From NCBI GenBank assembly GCA_008330645.1, contig VLTN01000015.1:434001-498000 (forward strand): DNA of 64,000 bases, in the 5' to 3' direction. The stretch is from Cafeteria roenbergensis. Taxonomy: Eukaryota; Sar; Bigyra; Bicosoecida; Cafeteriaceae. Shown in pieces: positions 1,270 to 33,209 of the stretch. A program made the translations under genes and the position numbers. Positions within the stretch are counted from its first letter, which is position 1; every line of letters begins with the position of its first letter. The notes under the pieces are model-generated. The model worked only from the letters and a program-made list of their open reading frames with translations, searched no databases and was not told the DNA's origin.

Positions 1270-1665
1270 GCTTCCTTGGCCAAGGCGGGCAGGAGTTTTG
1301 TAGAGCGCGCGAGGTGGGGGGGAGGGGCGTGGCGGGCAGGATGCATATTTGCGGGTCGATGCGGCTTCCCATTTCGGAGAGCCATTGGTTGGTTGCCTGG
1401 TCAGGCGTGGCTTCCCAAGCCCCATCTCAGGGCAAGGTCCGTTCGTCCTGTGTGCGTGTTGCATTGAACTACGGTTCCCATCGCGTTTGCACGGCGCCTC
1501 GTCCTCACACGATGGGAAGATTCCGCCACACTCGGGGGGGGGGGCTAGCGAGTGCGTAGGGGCCAGGGTGTGCGTGGCGTCTCCTCTCAGGGTGTGCCAC
1601 CAGCCATCGTGACTCAAGAACGAAGTGGTGTGTGTCTACCGAAACAAAAACAAAACAAAAATCAC
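1270..1665. other. Intergenic spacer between the repeat protein and the tRNA-Gln cluster
   Basis: This stretch holds no gene that I can support. It includes a G8 run near 1536-1543 and an A-rich end (1641-1661) that is the terminator of the first tRNA gene. Base composition drops toward the tRNA cluster. Confidence 0.5.
1657..1661 (-). terminator. Pol III terminator of tRNA-Gln copy 1
   Basis: A run of five T on the minus strand lies 4 nt past the 3' end of the tRNA, followed by further T-rich blocks (1642-1655). This is the usual RNA polymerase III stop signal. Confidence 0.65.
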
Positions 1666-1736
1666 TTGCCCCTCCGAGAATTGAACTCGGATTGCTGGAT
1701 TCAGAGTCCAAAGTGCTACCATTACACCAAGGAGCA
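1666..1736 (-). tRNA. tRNA-Gln (anticodon CUG), copy 1
   Basis: This is a 71-nt cloverleaf without an intron. The acceptor arm pairs TGCTCCT with AGGGGCA and the discriminator base is A. The D arm contains GTGTAATGGTAGCAC, the anticodon stem pairs TTGGA with TCCAG around loop CTCTGAA, and the T arm pairs CCGAG with CTCGG around TTCAATT. Anticodon CTG reads the Gln codon CAG. A-box and B-box promoter sequences are present. All five copies in the window are identical over the 71 nt. The first pair is U1-A72 where most nuclear tRNA-Gln have G1-C72. This copy has the most divergent flanks of the five. Confidence 0.93.
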
Positions 1737-1760
1737 ACCAGATATCCAACGGAGCTGATT

Positions 1761-1767
1761 TTGTCAA
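1761..1767 (-). promoter_or_regulatory. Upstream -31 element of tRNA-Gln copy 1
   Basis: TTGACAA on the minus strand begins exactly 31 nt before the tRNA 5' end, the same position as TTGTCAA at copies 2, 3 and 5. It is probably the TFIIIB/TBP contact site (a TATA-like upstream element). Confidence 0.5.
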
Positions 1768-2347
1768 TCGATACTTATTATTGTTCAGCTCACTGGTCGA
1801 CAATGGATCGGTGACAGATACGAGGGCCAAGACTGAGGCAAAAGGAGAACCAAAAGGCCAATTCGGACGTGCAAGTGCCACTCGCGATGTGGCTGAAGCA
1901 CTACAGGTAGAACAAGGAGCGAGTGGCGACATCCTTTGGAACGAAAACGGTACTGTGCTCAAAGCCTGTGGGTGTAACCACCCCACCGCCACTGCAACTT
2001 TCTTGGGATTTGGCACCACAATACCAACACTTCGGCAGCGGTCTCGTCCCTGGAAGCTGCTCTCGCGCGTGCATTGTATTGCCAGATGCATAGTGCAACG
2101 ACACGTTCTGCGTCGCCAAGCACCGCTCCTTTAACTTGCATCAGCGCCATGCGTTACATTGTTTGGCCACACTACTCAATCCGCAGGCAAAGAGAGGTCG
2201 TTTGGGCGGAAAGAAAGGACTTGCAGCGAGAGCCACGATACCCGACACAGGGAAGCCAAGCTCTTGACTCTCTGAAGCGCTTGAGAGCACCTTGCATGTC
2301 CTCGAGATCTGCCACAGTGATGTCGTCGAAAACATGATTGTACCACA
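1768..2347. other. Spacer between tRNA-Gln copies 1 and 2
   Basis: About 580 nt of lower-GC DNA lies between divergently oriented tRNA genes. I see no coding potential, no other tRNA and no recognisable snRNA or mobile element. Confidence 0.45.
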
Positions 2348-2359
2348 TTGTCAAATTTT
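2348..2359 (+). promoter_or_regulatory. Upstream -31 element of tRNA-Gln copy 2
   Basis: TTGTCAAATTTT begins 31 nt before the tRNA, and the leader ends in GTGTTGT immediately before the gene. The element is matched in sequence and spacing by copies 3 and 5. Confidence 0.6.
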
Positions 2360-2378
2360 AACTAAGCAGATGTGTTGT

Positions 2379-2449
2379 TGCTCCTTGGTGTAATGGTAGC
2401 ACTTTGGACTCTGAATCCAGCAATCCGAGTTCAATTCTCGGAGGGGCAA
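2379..2449 (+). tRNA. tRNA-Gln (anticodon CUG), copy 2
   Basis: The sequence is identical to the other four copies: cloverleaf, anticodon CTG, no intron, U1-A72 pair. Leader GTGTTGT and trailer GTCACT plus T-run are shared with copies 3 and 5, which shows that whole transcription units were duplicated, not only the tRNA body. Copies 2 and 3 are tandem on the plus strand, 348 nt apart. Confidence 0.93.
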
Positions 2450-2464
2450 GTCACTGAATATCTC

Positions 2465-2469
2465 TTTTT
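2465..2469 (+). terminator. Pol III terminator of tRNA-Gln copy 2
   Basis: A TTTTT run lies 16 nt after the tRNA, within a trailer similar to that of copies 3 and 5. Confidence 0.65.
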
Positions 2470-2766
2470 GCTTCTGGCACCCTTTTTGGTCCGTGGCCTC
2501 TCTGCCTGCCCCGCTGCCAGAGGAGCCACCTCGTCGCACAGAGCAGACTGAGATCGACATGGCTTGCCGAGCTTTTTTCCAGGTCAAACCGGGCCTTGAG
2601 GCGGTCCATGGGCGCGACACCGTTCGGAGCCGCGGCGCATGCCGCTCGCGACTGGGCGCGGGCTTACCATTCGAGGCTTGCCACCGCGTTGGTCTTCGCA
2701 CTCTTTGCACGAGTACTGGGCTCGCTGATGCTGGCACTGAGGCTGAGTAACCGTAAATAGAATAAA
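2470..2766. other. Spacer between tRNA-Gln copies 2 and 3
   Basis: No gene is evident in this roughly 300-nt spacer. It contains an AATAAA hexamer (2760-2765) just before the upstream element of copy 3, probably fortuitous AT-rich promoter sequence. Confidence 0.4.
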
Positions 2767-2778
2767 TTGTCAAAAATT
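2767..2778 (+). promoter_or_regulatory. Upstream -31 element of tRNA-Gln copy 3
   Basis: TTGTCAAAAATT begins 31 nt before the tRNA, with the same spacing as at copy 2. The leader again ends GTGTTGT. Confidence 0.6.
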
Positions 2779-2797
2779 TGACTTCCCATCGTGTTGT

Positions 2798-2868
2798 TGC
2801 TCCTTGGTGTAATGGTAGCACTTTGGACTCTGAATCCAGCAATCCGAGTTCAATTCTCGGAGGGGCAA
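2798..2868 (+). tRNA. tRNA-Gln (anticodon CUG), copy 3
   Basis: The 71-nt sequence is identical to copies 1, 2, 4 and 5, with anticodon CTG and no intron. It is in tandem with copy 2. Its trailer (GTCACTAAACATC then T7) is nearly the same as that of copy 5 on the opposite strand. Confidence 0.93.
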
Positions 2869-2881
2869 GTCACTAAACATC

Positions 2882-2888
2882 TTTTTTT
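2882..2888 (+). terminator. Pol III terminator of tRNA-Gln copy 3
   Basis: A run of seven T lies 14 nt downstream of the tRNA. Confidence 0.7.
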
Positions 2889-3183
2889 GCTTGGCGGCGC
2901 CTCACGTGGTGCGCTTGTAATTGGATGGTTCCAGGCCATCACAGTCTTCACGCACATCGCGATGCCGGCCCGAACCGAGAGTGCTGCGTTAGCCTCCGTC
3001 TGAGGAGGGTTGCCTCGCAATCTCCCAACACCCAGACAGGACCGGCGAGTTATGGCAACGCGTGCTGCTATCTGAGGCTCGCAATGACACGGCTATCGGG
3101 TCGCTTGCTGTCGTTTGTCTGCCGTTTGCACGAGGAGGCCGGCCGGCAGCCCACAGCTTTCGCCACAGGAAGAATCCCCACGC
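2889..3183. other. Spacer between tRNA-Gln copies 3 and 4
   Basis: This spacer separates convergent tRNA genes. I see no gene or repeat in it. Confidence 0.4.
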
Positions 3184-3188
3184 AAAAA
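3184..3188 (-). terminator. Pol III terminator of tRNA-Gln copy 4
   Basis: Five T on the minus strand lie 13 nt past the tRNA 3' end, in a trailer beginning GTCAC like those of copies 2, 3 and 5. Confidence 0.65.
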
Positions 3189-3200
3189 GAGGTATGTGAC

Positions 3201-3271
3201 TTGCCCCTCCGAGAATTGAACTCGGATTGCTGGATTCAGAGTCCAAAGTGCTACCATTACACCAAGGAGCA
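3201..3271 (-). tRNA. tRNA-Gln (anticodon CUG), copy 4
   Basis: The sequence is identical to the other four copies. Leader AGTGTTGT is shared. The upstream element is the weakest of the set (CCTCAAA at -31 in place of TTGTCAA), so this copy may be transcribed less. Confidence 0.92.
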
Positions 3272-3290
3272 ACAACACTCCCGGGCGGCG

Positions 3291-3302
3291 AAAAATTTGA
3301 GG
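3291..3302 (-). promoter_or_regulatory. Upstream -31 element of tRNA-Gln copy 4 (degenerate)
   Basis: CCTCAAATTTTT on the minus strand starts at -31. It matches the TCAA and T-rich parts of the element but lacks the initial TTG. Confidence 0.45.
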
Positions 3303-3641
3303 TTTCTTTTGCCATAGGTTCCCGACATGGCCAGTGTCGCTGCGAAGCTTCGGCTGTGGGCTCACCTCCGGCTCCGGCACCGTCGCGCAAGCGCTGATCG
3401 CCTCGACCAACGAAGCAGAACCCCCCCCATCAGGCATTCCCAAGGCACCCGGCAAAGTCGCAGCGTTTGTCCTCAACTCTGTACACGGCTGCTCGCCGGG
3501 CGACGCGGGATGGCAATGTGGGTCGTTGCTGCTCACCACTGCAAGGCTGCAGCGTGCGCATCCGCTCCTGCAGCTTGGGTGGGGGGTGAAGAGGTTAGCT
3601 CAACAGCACCCTAGGAGCACAACATGAGGCGCCGCCAAGCT
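3303..3641. other. Spacer between tRNA-Gln copies 4 and 5
   Basis: About 340 nt without a supportable gene; the short open frames here have no recognisable product. Confidence 0.4.
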
Positions 3642-3647
3642 AAAAAA
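3642..3647 (-). terminator. Pol III terminator of tRNA-Gln copy 5
   Basis: Six T on the minus strand lie 14 nt after the tRNA, in a trailer (GTCACTAAACATC) nearly identical to copy 3. Confidence 0.7.
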
Positions 3648-3660
3648 GATGTTTAGTGAC

Positions 3661-3731
3661 TTGCCCCTCCGAGAATTGAACTCGGATTGCTGGATTCAGA
3701 GTCCAAAGTGCTACCATTACACCAAGGAGCA
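3661..3731 (-). tRNA. tRNA-Gln (anticodon CUG), copy 5
   Basis: The sequence is identical to copies 1-4. It has the full upstream element, leader GTGTTGT and T6 terminator, so it appears functional. It ends the cluster next to the MaoC-type gene, which is transcribed toward it. Confidence 0.93.
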
Positions 3732-3750
3732 ACAACACAACTATTTTTCA

Positions 3751-3762
3751 AAAAGTTGACAA
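3751..3762 (-). promoter_or_regulatory. Upstream -31 element of tRNA-Gln copy 5
   Basis: TTGTCAACTTTT on the minus strand starts exactly 31 nt before the tRNA. Confidence 0.6.
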
Positions 3763-3902
3763 TTTGATTACTTTTGCAGTCCCAGCCGACTGTTTGTTGT
3801 CTTGCTGCACCCGTTTTGTGATGTTTGGCTTTCTGGGGAGGCTCAAGATGCACGAGGCTTGGCACAAGTGCAGTGGACTGCAAGCCTAAGTTCGGCAGGG
3901 GC

Positions 3903-5084
3903 TCACGGAATGGGGCAGAAGCCCGCAGTGCCATGGCAGTACACGTCATCCATGACCTCGGCGATGGCGCGCCGCTTACGGGGCTTGCCCCACACCGCAA
4001 ACTCGACCTCGCCGTCCTTTGCCGTCTCCCACCAGCCAAAGGCAGCCTTGCCCGGCATGACAAGCGGGGAGCGGAAGCTGCAGTCGACGAACACGCCCTT
4101 GTCCTTGGTCGGGCGCAGGTGGCCGTCGCGGCGCAGGGCGGCGCAGGCCTTGCCGAGAGTCCACTTGCCGTGAATGATGGCACCCTTGAAGCCGGCGAGG
4201 ACCTTTGCGGCGATCGGGGACACGTGGATCGGGTTGAAGTCGCCGGAGAGAGCGGCGTAGGTGGAGCCGGTGCCGGAGGGCACGTCCCAGCGCTCCTTGG
4301 GCTCCGAGGCCTTCTCGGCGTCGCGACGGCGCAGGGCTTCGACGTCGGGGGGAGTGGCGGGCTTGGCGTCGGCAGCCTTGTCCTTGCGCTTGCCCGCGAA
4401 CTTGTAGAGGGCGAGCAGGGTGGAGCGGGAGAAGAGGACGCCGTCGGGCCCCGAGGCGTCGAAGACGATGCGGAGCTCGAGGCCGTTGTCGCAAGGGGTG
4501 AGGGTGGGGGGGCGGGCCACCACGCTGAACTTGCAGCCCGCGGTGGCGTCCACAGGCAGGTCGCGGTACATCTCCACGCGCTGCCCGATGTGCACGGGGA
4601 ACGGGATGGTCGGCAGCGGGTTGGTTGGGTGCGCGAGGGAGGCGATGCCCATGACCTCGCCGGCCACGTTGGGATAGGTGATGAAGAGAGGCAGGCTCCC
4701 GGGCTTGCCCGACTTGCCGTGCGCCTCGCCTCCCTTGAGCGAGTCGGACGGCTCGAAATGCTGGTGGAAGCGCTCGTACTGCTTGGGATCGAGCACGATG
4801 TCCCGGGACATCTCGAGGTTGGGCATCTTCGGGACCGGCTCGGAGCGGCGGAAGTTGCCGCGAATGCGGCAGCACAGCACTCCGCGCAGCATGAACAGCA
4901 TGGGGTGCGGGTTGTAGTCGGCAGGCACCTTTACGACAGTGGGGCTGCCGGCGGCGCCGCCCTTGGGAGCAGCGGAGGGGTCCACGGGCAACGAGGTGGC
5001 CTGGAAGACGTACACCACAAGCGCCAGAACAGCCGCAGCGACGATGCCTACGCCCCACAGGACGCAGTCGCAGTCGCCGAACAT
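3903..5084 (-). CDS. MaoC-like hotdog-fold hydratase/dehydratase, N-terminally anchored
   Basis: The gene is a single exon of 393 aa. An N-terminal hydrophobic segment (about residues 9-30, VGIVAAAVLALVVYVF) follows a very short leader, so the protein is probably a membrane-anchored enzyme. The C-terminal half carries the (R)-hydratase signature YAALSGDFNPIH at about residues 276-287 with the Asp and His used for enoyl-CoA hydration, followed by IIHGKWTLGK. The N-terminal half is probably the second hotdog fold of the double-hotdog family. Family members hydrate enoyl-CoA or act as 3-hydroxyacyl dehydratases in fatty-acid metabolism; the substrate here is not evident. The chosen ATG (5084) directly precedes the hydrophobic anchor. 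An in-frame ATG at 5222 would add 46 low-complexity residues. It lies 288 nt downstream of IFT22 on the same strand. Confidence 0.8.
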   Translation of the reverse strand: MFGDCDCVLWGVGIVAAAVLALVVYVFQATSLPVDPSAAPKGGAAGSPTVVKVPADYNPHPMLFMLRGVLCCRIRGNFRRSEPVPKMPNLEMSRDIVLDPKQYERFHQHFEPSDSLKGGEAHGKSGKPGSLPLFITYPNVAGEVMGIASLAHPTNPLPTIPFPVHIGQRVEMYRDLPVDATAGCKFSVVARPPTLTPCDNGLELRIVFDASGPDGVLFSRSTLLALYKFAGKRKDKAADAKPATPPDVEALRRRDAEKASEPKERWDVPSGTGSTYAALSGDFNPIHVSPIAAKVLAGFKGAIIHGKWTLGKACAALRRDGHLRPTKDKGVFVDCSFRSPLVMPGKAAFGWWETAKDGEVEFAVWGKPRKRRAIAEVMDDVYCHGTAGFCPIP

Positions 5085-23753: not shown

Positions 23754-25499
23754 TCAGGAGGCCTCAAGCTTGCGCTTCTCCGCCTCTAGCGAGTCGAGCT
23801 TGCCCCGGCGCCCCTCCGCGCGGATGGCTCGTTCGAGCAGCGCGACCTGATCGGCGTTGGCAGGGTTCTCCAGCCACGCCTTGGCATGCTCGCGGCCCTG
23901 GCCGATGCCGATCACCAGCTGCTCCGGCTCGTCCTCGCGCTTTGCACCGGCATCGTCCGCCGCTGTCCCTTCGGAATCTCCCGCGGCAGCGGCAGCGGCA
24001 GCGGCAGCGGCAGCAGCCTCCGCGTCCGCCTCAGCCTCGGCAATGGCCTTCTTCGACCGGCGAGCGGTCTTGGCGCGACCGCGCTTGGCCGGGGCCGCAT
24101 CTTCGCCAGCGCTCGAGTCGGCAGCTGCGGCGGCCGCCGCCGGTGCTGCGCCGGCGGGGGGCCCCTCTCCCGCTGCTTCCCGGCACGCCCCGATGTCCAA
24201 GGAGTACCAGGCGCCAGCGCGCTTGACGAATCCGCCGCGAAGGCCGAGGTCAACAAGCTCGCCGACGCGGGAGACACCTCCTCCGTAGGTCATGTCGAAC
24301 TCCGCCACGCGGAAGGGCGGCGCGAGCTTGTTCTTGACCACGCGGACGCGGGTGGTGCTGGCCACAATCTCGTCGCCCTTCTTGACCTGGCCGGAGCGGC
24401 GGATGTCCAGTCGGATGGATGCGTAGTACTTGAGGGACTGCCCTCCCGCAGTCACCTCGGGGGAGCCGAAGATCACGCCCACCTTGGAGCGGATCTGGTT
24501 GATGAAGATGATGAGCGTGTTGGAGCGGCCCATAGAGGACGTCAGCTTGCGCAGAGCCTGGGACATGAGGCGGGCCTGCAGCGCCATGTGGTGGTCGCCC
24601 ATGTCCCCCTCCAGCTCGGCGCGCGGGACCAGGGCAGCGACGGAGTCGAGGACGACCACGTCCACAGCGCCGGAGCGCACGAAGGTGTCCACGATCTCGA
24701 GGGCGTTCTCGCCCGTGTCCGGCTGGGAGAGCAGGAGGTTGTCGACGTCCACGCCGAGCTTGAGCGCGTACGCGGGGTCGATGGCGTGCTCCACGTCGAC
24801 GAAGACGCAGGACATGCCCCGCTTCTGCGCCTGGGCCACGGCTTGCAGGGCAAGGGTGGTCTTGCCGCTGGACTCGGGGCCGTAAATCTCGACCACGCGG
24901 CTGCGAAGGACGGGCAGGGGAGCGGGAGGGGGAATAGGAGGCGGGAGCTGAGCAGAGCAAAGCAGAGCAGGGCAGGGCAGTGCCGGACGGCGGCGGGAGC
25001 AGGACGCCGCGGCCAGGGAAGATCCCTCGGCGGCGTGGCCGGGGCAGGCCAACCGGCCGACGCGCTCTGACGGCCTGGGGCTGCCGGCTCGGCGCGCCGG
25101 CCAGCTCAGAAGAGCCCAGGGCGCAGGCCGCGACGCGGGCGCGCATTCGAGCCAGAGTTCGATGGCGGACGCCCAGCGGTCTCACCCGCGCGGGAGTCCT
25201 CCGATGCCGAGCGCGACGTCGAGCGTCAGTGAGCCAGTCGAGATGACCTCAATTCCCTCGGCCGAGTGGCGATCACCGAGGCGCATCACCGTGCCTCGGC
25301 CCATGGCCGACTCGATCTGCTTCAAGGCGGCGTCGAGTGCCTTTTGCCTCGCGTCGCTCGTCGCATCGCGGGCCTGGGCAGGGGCTCGCGGCGTGGAGGC
25401 CGCAGCCAGGGCAGGCCGACCGGTGGCCGCCGCGGCCCGCAGCGATGCGCGCGACGCGACTACGCTGTGGCGAAGGCGAAGTGCGCGCGAAAGGGCCAT
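23754..25499 (-). CDS. recA: Organellar (probably mitochondrial) RecA recombinase
   Basis: Two exons encode 486 aa: 25499-25186 and 24900-23754. The 285-nt intron is phase 2 and its removal rebuilds [19 protein letters not shown] exactly as in bacterial RecA. Present are Walker A GPESSGKT, Walker [11 protein letters not shown], loop L2 [18 protein letters not shown], and the C-terminal [15 protein letters not shown]. RecA forms filaments on single-stranded DNA for strand exchange and repair. The first about 50 residues ([20 protein letters not shown]...) are Arg/Ala/Ser-rich without acids, a typical mitochondrial presequence. An Ala/Lys/Glu-rich insertion of about 100 residues separates [10 protein letters not shown] from the IGQG helix. 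Protists inherited such RecA from organelles; a plastid origin is possible only if the host has plastids. The promoter (171 nt) is shared with the M16 peptidase. Confidence 0.93.
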
Positions 25500-30766: not shown

Positions 30767-33209
30767 TCAGCCACGCGCGGGCAGCGGGATGGGCTCCATG
30801 CCGAGGGTGGCCCAGAACTGCGCCTCCGAGGTGATCTCCTCGCTCTTCTCGCACAGGATGGGGGTCTTGGACTTCTTGGCGCCGTCCTTGCTCACGGACT
30901 CCTTGAACTCGCCAGAGTGCTTGGTCAGTCCGATGGAGCCCATCGACACGCCCTTGCGGCCCATGCGTGCCCGGAGGCCCTGGAGGGCGTCCGACGAGAA
31001 CGAGCAGATGACCCGGGCCGAGACCAGGAAGTTGCGGGGCACGAGCACCAGCTGCACCATTGCGCCGAAGGGGGCCGTGCGCCCGCTGCGCTCAATGGCC
31101 TCGCGAGCGAGCTCCCCGAGCCGGCCGCGCTCCTTGGCCGCCTTGGCCTGCACCTCGTCGCGGCTGACCGAGTCTTCGGACGCCGCAGCGGCCGTCAGCG
31201 CAGCCGCAGTTGTGGCGGAGGGCGCCGCCGCCGAGGAGGAGGACGACGAGCCGAAGTCCGCAACGGCCGAGAGCTGGCCCTTGTCCCAGACGGCGCTGGC
31301 GCTGGTGGCGGCCTCGTCTTCGGCCTCTGCGTCGTCCAGGTCCGGCAGCATGGCCGCGAGCTTGGAGGCCGCCGACTTGGCCGCCTTGCTGCCGGTCACG
31401 GGCGCGGCAGCGGCCATGCTCGTGTCCGCAGGCTCCGCCTTGGCGGCGGCGGCCGCCCCGCCAGCGCCAGGCTTCTCGGCCTTAATGGCCTTGCCGTCTG
31501 CCCGCTTCCCCGCGTCGCAGAGTGTCCCGGCGGGAACCACAGTGCCGGTGGCCCCGGGCACGCAGACGACGGTGGCCATGTGCGCTGCCTTGCGGAGCGT
31601 GGCATGCGCCACATGTGCCCTGCGGGGGCTTGGGGGCGCGGTGGGCGAGGGGAGGGGGGGGGGGGCACACAGGGAGGGCGGTGGAGCTGGCGGGGCAGGC
31701 GCAGCTGCCGGGCGCGGCAAGCGCACTGGCGGCACGCCGGAGGCCGCACGACGCGCCGACGCAAGGGCTGAGCGTCTGCACAACAAGGCGCGGCAGCGGA
31801 CTGCAGAACTGACTTGGTGAGCGCGTCGACGAAGCCCTCAAAGTCGGGCATGTTGTCCTCAGGCTTCCCGCCCTTGGCGAAGGCACGCGCGGCGGAGCGC
31901 GTCTTCGCCGCCAGCTCGTCCACACGATGCTCAAAGGTCCAGTCGTCCGCCACAACCAGCAGCTTGACGCGGGACATCTCCTCCGCCCCGCGGGCGTAGG
32001 CGCCCGACAGCTCCACGGTAGACATACCCAGCTGTGGCGTGACAGGGCCATGGCGCGAGGGGCACGAACGGGAGCGCGCAGACTGGAGGAGCGGCCGGAG
32101 CGACGGGCATGGCGCGAACTGGCCCGCGAGCTCGAAGCGGCACCGTGTACGAGAGCGAGGGTCGGGAGAAGGGGGCGGGGGAGCGCGGAGGCGGCGAGAC
32201 TCACCTCCTTGGCCACAGGGGCGATCGCGTCTCTGAGGCGCTCGGCATCGGCGCGCGACAGCGGCATCAGCGTCTCCTCCACCCAAGGGGCGTGCGCAAT
32301 GCCAGCCTCGGGCACCTTGCAATCACGCAGCACGGTGGACGACGTGGTGATGGCGGCGCGCAGGTCCTTGAAGCTCGTGATGTTGTTGTCCGCGAGGCGC
32401 GAGGCGATGGTGTGGCCGACGCCCTCCAGCGTGCTGAGCTCCTCCACCGCGCGCTCCGCGTCCGTCTTGTTGGCGTCGGCGGCGGCGGCGCGAAGGCTGC
32501 TGCCGTGCTCCACGATCTCCACGATCTGCGCGACGGTGCTCTTGCCCACGCCCTTGATGCGCGCGGACAGCGCAGCGTCCTCCGGCGTCTTGATCTCCAC
32601 CCCCCACGTCTTGAGCTCGCCGATGGCCTGCGGGCGAACGGCAGCGAACGCCACACCACCGCACTCACGCACTTCAGAGGCTCGCCGCAGCGACGCCAGG
32701 GTGCGCGCAGCGCAGCGGCGGCGGGCTTGCTCACCTTGGCAAGCCCGCGGATTTTGAAAATGTCGGCTCCCTCGCGCTTGAAGCCGGCCAGGATGGCCTC
32801 GAGCTCCTGCGACGCGCAGGAACAGGCGCACACGACACACAACACGTCGCCGCCGCGCCTGTGAGCAGTAGCATCCCTTGCCCGCGCTTCAAGTGGAGCG
32901 CCCGCGCTGGGCTCGCTGAGCCGGTGGCGACAAGTCCAGCAAACCGCAGGGCGCTCGTCACACGGCGCGGCTCACATCCGTGATGTGCTTGTTCAGGTTC
33001 ACCTCGCTCAGGGGCTTCGGGTCCTTGTCGTCGCTGCGACGGCGGGCGAACACGCGGAGCAGAGCAGCAAGCCATCGTCCAGTGTGCGCCTCGCGGGCGG
33101 CCCCGGGTCCTCACCCGGCGGTCGACAGTGCGGCCTGCCGGACTCACTACTTCGTCATCTTGACCTTCTTGGGCCGAGCCCGGGCCGCGCTCGCCGTACG
33201 CTTGGGCAT
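30767..33209 (-). CDS. DNA polymerase X family (Pol beta-like) protein lacking catalytic residues
   Basis: Six exons encode 561 aa: 33209-33148, 33033-32976, 32806-32735, 32627-32205, 32031-31814 and 31619-30767. Introns are 107-194 nt with correct phases. A Lys/Arg-rich N-terminus (RARPKKVK) looks like a nuclear signal. The 8-kDa domain is clear (SEVNLNKHITD, ELEAILAGFKREGA, then HhH IKGVGKSTVAQIVEIV). The second HhH (STLEGVGHTIASRLADNNI) and the thumb end (VQLVLVPRNF...FSSDALQGLRARM) follow Pol beta order. The active sites are gone: where Pol beta has GSFRRGAESSGDMDVLL, this reads GAYARGAEEMSRVKLLV, so Asp190 and Asp192 become Arg226 and Lys228. Asp256 aligns with Gln467 and the lyase Lys72 with Gln98. 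A low-complexity insert splits the palm. It is probably a non-catalytic DNA-binding or scaffold protein. The GTCAGT donor of intron 5 is the least certain junction. Confidence 0.8.

Follow-up and report, generated by a model that had tools for sequence, protein, structure and literature searches.

FNF29_03058 of Cafeteria roenbergensis, a eukaryotic family X DNA polymerase homolog that has very likely lost catalysis

Cafeteria is a marine flagellate, a single-celled predator, and its 36.3 Mb genome contains a gene whose product, FNF29_03058, is very probably a family X DNA polymerase (Pol X) by descent and not by activity. Its predicted fold is that of a full Pol beta/lambda-type protein. Of the palm's three metal-binding acids at least two are replaced, and the lyase lysine is replaced as well, so that it very probably makes no DNA. 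The reading we prefer, to which we give a probability of roughly 55%, is that it acts as a nuclear pseudo-polymerase in DNA repair, where without catalysis it would bind nucleic acids or serve as an adaptor, with its DNA binding and its partners putative.

The gene lies on the minus strand of the window, the whole stretch of 64,000 nucleotides analysed here, which is part of contig VLTN01000015.1 (C15) (Table 1). All intron borders are GT-AG, the introns measure 107-194 bases and the stop codon falls within the last exon. The spliced product matches the deposited C. roenbergensis protein FNF29_03058 with 100% identity over 100% of its length, so that the six-exon structure with intact frame and splice sites proposed in the first-pass annotation holds, and Q98, R226, K228 and Q467 stand at the positions named there. 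NCBI labels the protein 'hypothetical'; the genome annotation drew on transcriptome data as well as on de novo and homology evidence (PMC6972860). No stop or frameshift interrupts the six clean exons. GC by codon position is 0.658, 0.525 and 0.902 across the exons and GC3 is at least 0.84 in every part of the gene, the introns having no comparable consistent pattern, and a codon bias this strong across all parts, with the intact frame, speaks against a broken gene and agrees with the earlier view that this is not a decaying pseudogene. Exon 1 encodes a basic N-terminus, MPKRTASAARARPKKVKMTK, which resembles a nuclear localisation signal.

Table 1 Features of the FNF29_03058 gene, in window coordinates
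Feature	Position	Strand	Remark
Six-exon gene of putatively inactive Pol X protein FNF29_03058 (561 aa)	30767..33209	-	
Exon 1: basic N-terminus MPKRTASAARARPKKVKMTK	33148..33209	-	pI 10.45, residues 1-30
Exon 2: 8-kDa domain begins	32976..33033	-	
Exon 3: 8-kDa domain, middle part	32735..32806	-	
Exon 4: remainder of 8-kDa domain, HhH2/fingers, palm start	32205..32627	-	
Exon 5: predicted palm strands with GAYARGAEEMSRVKLLVV, counterpart of GS.RRG....GD.D	31814..32031	-	
Exon 6: Ala-rich insert, then predicted last palm strand and thumb	30767..31619	-	exon span 31619-30767
HhH1 hairpin GVG, residues 90-92, kept	32544..32552	-	
Gln98 codon, at Pol beta Lys72 (dRP-lyase nucleophile) position	32526..32528	-	
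HhH2 hairpin GVG, residues 133-135, kept	32415..32423	-	
Arg226 codon, at Pol beta Asp190 position	31969..31971	-	
Lys228 codon, at Pol beta Asp192 position	31963..31965	-	
Insert, residues 300-455	31088..31555	-	largely low confidence in both models
Asp319 codon, rival counterpart of Pol beta Asp256	31496..31498	-	low-confidence stretch
Gln467 codon, preferred counterpart of Pol beta Asp256	31052..31054	-	

Elsewhere in the window, five tRNA-Gln(CTG) genes of identical body sequence lie on both strands at 1665-3732, in a low-GC pocket (0.555 at 2001-4000 as against 0.63-0.77 across most of the window), and together with flanking sequence the genes make up inverted repeats of 83-130 nt. A bacterial-type RecA, probably an organelle protein, is encoded on the minus strand at 23757-25181 (PF00154, 358 bits), about 5.6 kb from the Pol X gene.

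Pfam recognises the 8-kDa domain at residues 34-107 (PF14716, HHH_8; 45.9 bits against a cut-off of 30), the sole match above cut-off in the protein, and this domain is 33% identical to that of Pol lambda (25/76). In the PDB the best matches by sequence are to Pol lambda and those by fold to Pol beta or Pol lambda, the predicted-fold match spanning residues 33-561, and an 8-kDa domain with its HhH is followed in order by palm and thumb of the Pol beta fold, identity to Pol lambda and Pol beta being 17-20% in the palm and 11-18% in the thumb. Palm and thumb are found by none of the Pfam domain models, and we assign them from collinearity and structure prediction; the Pol beta architecture described in the first-pass annotation is supported to this extent. 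No PHP domain is matched by Pfam up to E 1 and the protein stops at the thumb. A MUS81-type helix-hairpin-helix protein lying outside family X would fit both the restriction of Pfam matches to HHH_8 and the UniRef name, but is hardly credible since a Pfam search of the protein to E 1 gives no match to the ERCC4 nuclease domain, while the genome, which also holds two Ku matches, has four ERCC4 matches elsewhere, and the PDB matches point to Pol lambda and Pol beta. The UniRef name itself, which starts 'Crossover junction endonuclea' despite the absent ERCC4 domain, likely stems from the HHH_8 match alone.

Within the 8-kDa domain the dRP-lyase lysine is replaced, Q98 standing at Pol beta Lys72. 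In the protein as a whole both helix-hairpin-helix motifs are intact. Both points were first noticed in the first-pass annotation, and the GVG hairpins of the two motifs are kept. The 5'-phosphate and lyase residues changed in alignment A5 are, in Pol beta numbering, H34F, Y39L, K60A, K68S, K72Q and K84A, the counterpart of K84 differing by alignment (Ala in A5, Arg in A2); of all functional positions compared in A5, those retained are K35, both GxG hairpins, R183, R283 and K289. The fingers segment has a net charge of -5, lower than in all 49 Pol Xs compared, for which the minimum is -1. With most of the 5'-phosphate pocket changed and the fingers this acidic, the suggestion that the protein is a gap-binding scaffold is weakened.

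In the palm, each of 30 MAFFT runs, which combined six sequence sets with five settings and in which prokaryotic rows were only partly recognised by the pattern used, gives R226 as the commonest partner of the first catalytic aspartate (Pol beta D190), and K228 aligns with D192. Against either of two Pol X profiles that include the two Cafeteria paralogues, the palm piece 161-300 scores higher than every one of 2000 shuffles, and with Cafeteria-free profiles the palm scores 2.9 bits, a value reached by 0/400 shuffles. Metal binding would be lost through the acid-to-base changes at these two positions whichever register the third takes, so that this part of the original claim is supported. Further changes in A5, again in Pol beta numbering, are R149P, S180A, S188M, G189S, R254M, R258V, Y271I, F272C, T273S, G274F, D276S, N279L, K280Q and E295S, and R183 alone is kept from the dNTP pocket set of R149, S180, R183, G189, YFTG and N279. 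The functional roles of this set and of the other positions compared we take to be those given in the Pol beta literature.

The third carboxylate is held less firmly. Its partner is D319, which sits inside the Ala-rich insert (residues 291-455 are 30% Ala), in 26/30 MAFFT runs and Q467 in 4/30; in 120 random subsets, each judged on one Pol beta row, the counts are 109/120 and 4/120. Tail statistics favour Q467. Taken by themselves, residues 440-561 do not reach significance with local profiles, their scores being equalled or exceeded by 885 and 80 of 2000 shuffles, and neither does the thumb by sequence (-1.7 bits, 16/400 shuffles as high). The AlphaFold2 models depend on the alignment given: with rows chosen to hold the Q467 register, pLDDT is 82-91 over blocks 461-510, and with a deeper alignment imposing the D319 register it is 29-36 over 461-490 and 41-43 around D319, the last palm strand being lost. 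On these models and the tail statistics Q467 is the preferred counterpart of the third aspartate, with less certainty than R226 and K228, and the claim that all three palm carboxylates are replaced holds for the first two while for the third most MAFFT runs give D319. An enzyme that is still a catalyst, with D319 or a later acid at the metal site or by some other chemistry, would be in keeping with those runs but is very unlikely, as positions one and two are Arg and Lys regardless, the D319 register brings low confidence and the loss of a strand, and the dNTP-pocket residues are gone. From the residues compared, loss of catalysis in FNF29_03058 is very likely.

In our preferred reading FNF29_03058 would be a protein-coding, presumably expressed, nuclear family X pseudo-polymerase of Cafeteria with a fold like that of Pol lambda and Pol beta, in which the two catalytic metals are not bound and few dNTP-contacting residues are kept. 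Lacking metal binding and the dRP-lyase lysine it would carry out neither DNA synthesis nor dRP removal, its two intact helix-hairpin-helix motifs would hold on to the DNA backbone, and the remainder of the protein, disordered insert included, may contact partners, possibly the two active-looking Pol X enzymes of the same cell. The intact frame, the codon bias, the annotated protein and two paralogues with intact triads support the idea, already put forward in the first-pass annotation, of a retained pseudoenzyme. Against it stand an extreme end branch of 7.25 changes per column, as is expected under weak constraint, the mostly lost 5'-phosphate pocket, the acidic fingers, and a thumb and last palm piece that are not significant by sequence. 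The main rival is a redundant Pol X copy that is drifting out, its active sites lost, translatable and functionless; the very long branch, the thumb not above shuffles, the weakly scored palm, the Ala-rich insert and two intact-triad paralogues that could cover its job would all suit such a copy. We nevertheless consider decay unlikely, given an uninterrupted frame in six clean exons, a codon bias that is strong in every part, hairpins that are kept and helices that are confidently modelled, and given that both metal acids have become bases in a frame that stayed open, which would point to long retention. Also against the preferred reading, searches reaching only fairly close relatives found no relative outside the species with which to gauge selection on the protein. 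Its cluster numbers 5 member sequences, taken by count and not inspected singly, and this count says little on selection because the four sequenced strains, for which the name C. burkhardae is used, are >99% identical on average (PMC8547959).

A search of the genome for a second, active Pol X gene, with Pfam palm and thumb models, yielded two, on contigs C3 and C9. Both have intact triads, with D.D and RRLD/LRID motifs, both carry a YFTGS or AFTGN motif and likewise have inserts before the third Asp, and at the lyase position Lys is kept in C3 and replaced by Arg in C9; they are the apparent Pol X enzymes of the Cafeteria cell. The C9 gene (L053:1134-5789) has an open frame of 1552 aa with a long insert before the third Asp and no recognisable 8-kDa domain. 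With Cafeteria-free profiles the 8-kDa domain scores 27.7 bits in FNF29_03058, 4.4 in C3 (a weak match, yet one that 0/400 shuffles equal) and -3.5 in C9, while the palms of C3 and C9 score 23.1 and 25.5 bits against 2.9, their thumbs 54.9 and 35.8 bits against -1.7, and the fingers score similarly in all three; Pfam agrees with these scores. They are suggestive of reciprocal decay, in which the apparently dead protein combines the best-scoring 8-kDa domain with a worn palm and thumb and the live paralogues are the reverse, and this is the new and most suggestive part of the analysis. A genome search with HHH_8 at E <= 1 finds the FNF29_03058 gene only, at 21.9 bits, below cut-off because the gene is read exon by exon. 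Both the reciprocal scores and this single match would be expected if FNF29_03058 were a partner subunit and divided the Pol X functions with the C3 and C9 proteins, these having kept palm and thumb with a decayed 8-kDa domain and FNF29_03058 the opposite. Such a partnership is distinctly unlikely, for its 8-kDa domain has neither the lyase Lys nor most phosphate-pocket residues, and could thus lend DNA grip but hardly 5'-end recognition, and C3 retains a weak 8-kDa match with its Lys. We regard as slightly more doubtful again an obligate non-catalytic subunit that arose after duplication, as the 8-kDa domains of the live Pol Xs decayed and the palm of the dead sister was lost, leaving Pol X split over separate proteins.

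In the order of its 8-kDa domain, fingers, palm and thumb, FNF29_03058 resembles Pol lambda and Pol beta, and it differs from them in having R, K and, by preference, Q where they have DDD, in its dismantled pockets and in an insert of ~150 residues before the last palm strand. With the C3 and C9 proteins it shares a genome, a Pol X palm and thumb and an insert before the third Asp, but these have intact triads, the YFTGS/AFTGN motif and an 8-kDa domain that is weak (C3) or unrecognised (C9). Pol mu and TdT, unlike FNF29_03058, have kept the catalytic triad and are active polymerases. They resemble it as eukaryotic Pol Xs in which the dRP-lyase Lys is absent (PMC5537341). A classification of 7250 Pol Xs includes a SAR cluster and remarks that Paramecium has the three aspartates (PMC12362244).

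Among prokaryotic Pol Xs, 809 (27.5%) lack one to three of the triad acids, which are replaced in some cases by Lys or Arg, and two noncanonical Deinococcus proteins were polymerase-inactive and 3'-5' exonuclease-active in the tests of that study, although an earlier report had given the D. radiodurans enzyme activity (Prostova et al. 2022, PMC9226535). The same study describes good conservation of the PHP and 8-kDa domains (PMC9226535). A 2026 survey agrees with this picture and describes a bacterial group, PolX2, which is without N-terminal and PHP domains and is not called inactive in its account of that group (PMC12926913). In our own comparison of 55 other Pol Xs (39 prokaryotic loci and 16 Pol beta rows) DDD is present in 52; two Anaerolineales Pol X-PHP proteins (L022, L040) are DDQ, with Gln for the third Asp and the first two kept, and a Saprospira grandis Pol X-PHP (L051) has a degraded palm, GPFRREMPVVDALDFL, and is apparently a noncanonical Pol X, cases which fit the prokaryotic reports. 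The noncanonical prokaryotic proteins are like FNF29_03058 in their Pol X palm with an altered triad, Lys and Arg included, and a changed dNTP site, but they have a conserved C-terminal PHP 3'-5' exonuclease and mostly a full 8-kDa domain (PMC9226535), whereas FNF29_03058 is eukaryotic, ends after the thumb without matching PHP and lacks the lyase Lys. The initial statement that no Pol X lacking both activities was known therefore needs narrowing, as prokaryotic triad losses and the loss of the lyase Lys in Pol mu and TdT are published (PMC9226535, PMC5537341); the literature searched yielded no eukaryotic Pol X described as lacking the triad, and no PHP-less eukaryotic protein described with both losses. 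What is new is a eukaryotic, apparently dead Pol X without nuclease and without lyase lysine, dead prokaryotic kin being already known. In prokaryotes the PHP nuclease explains the retention of a dead Pol X; a nuclease-less eukaryotic case lacking the lyase lysine would, if true, mean that the Pol X body is of use without any catalysis, and that use could be sought in Cafeteria, a cultured protist that has two active-looking Pol X paralogues and for which a giant virus is known.
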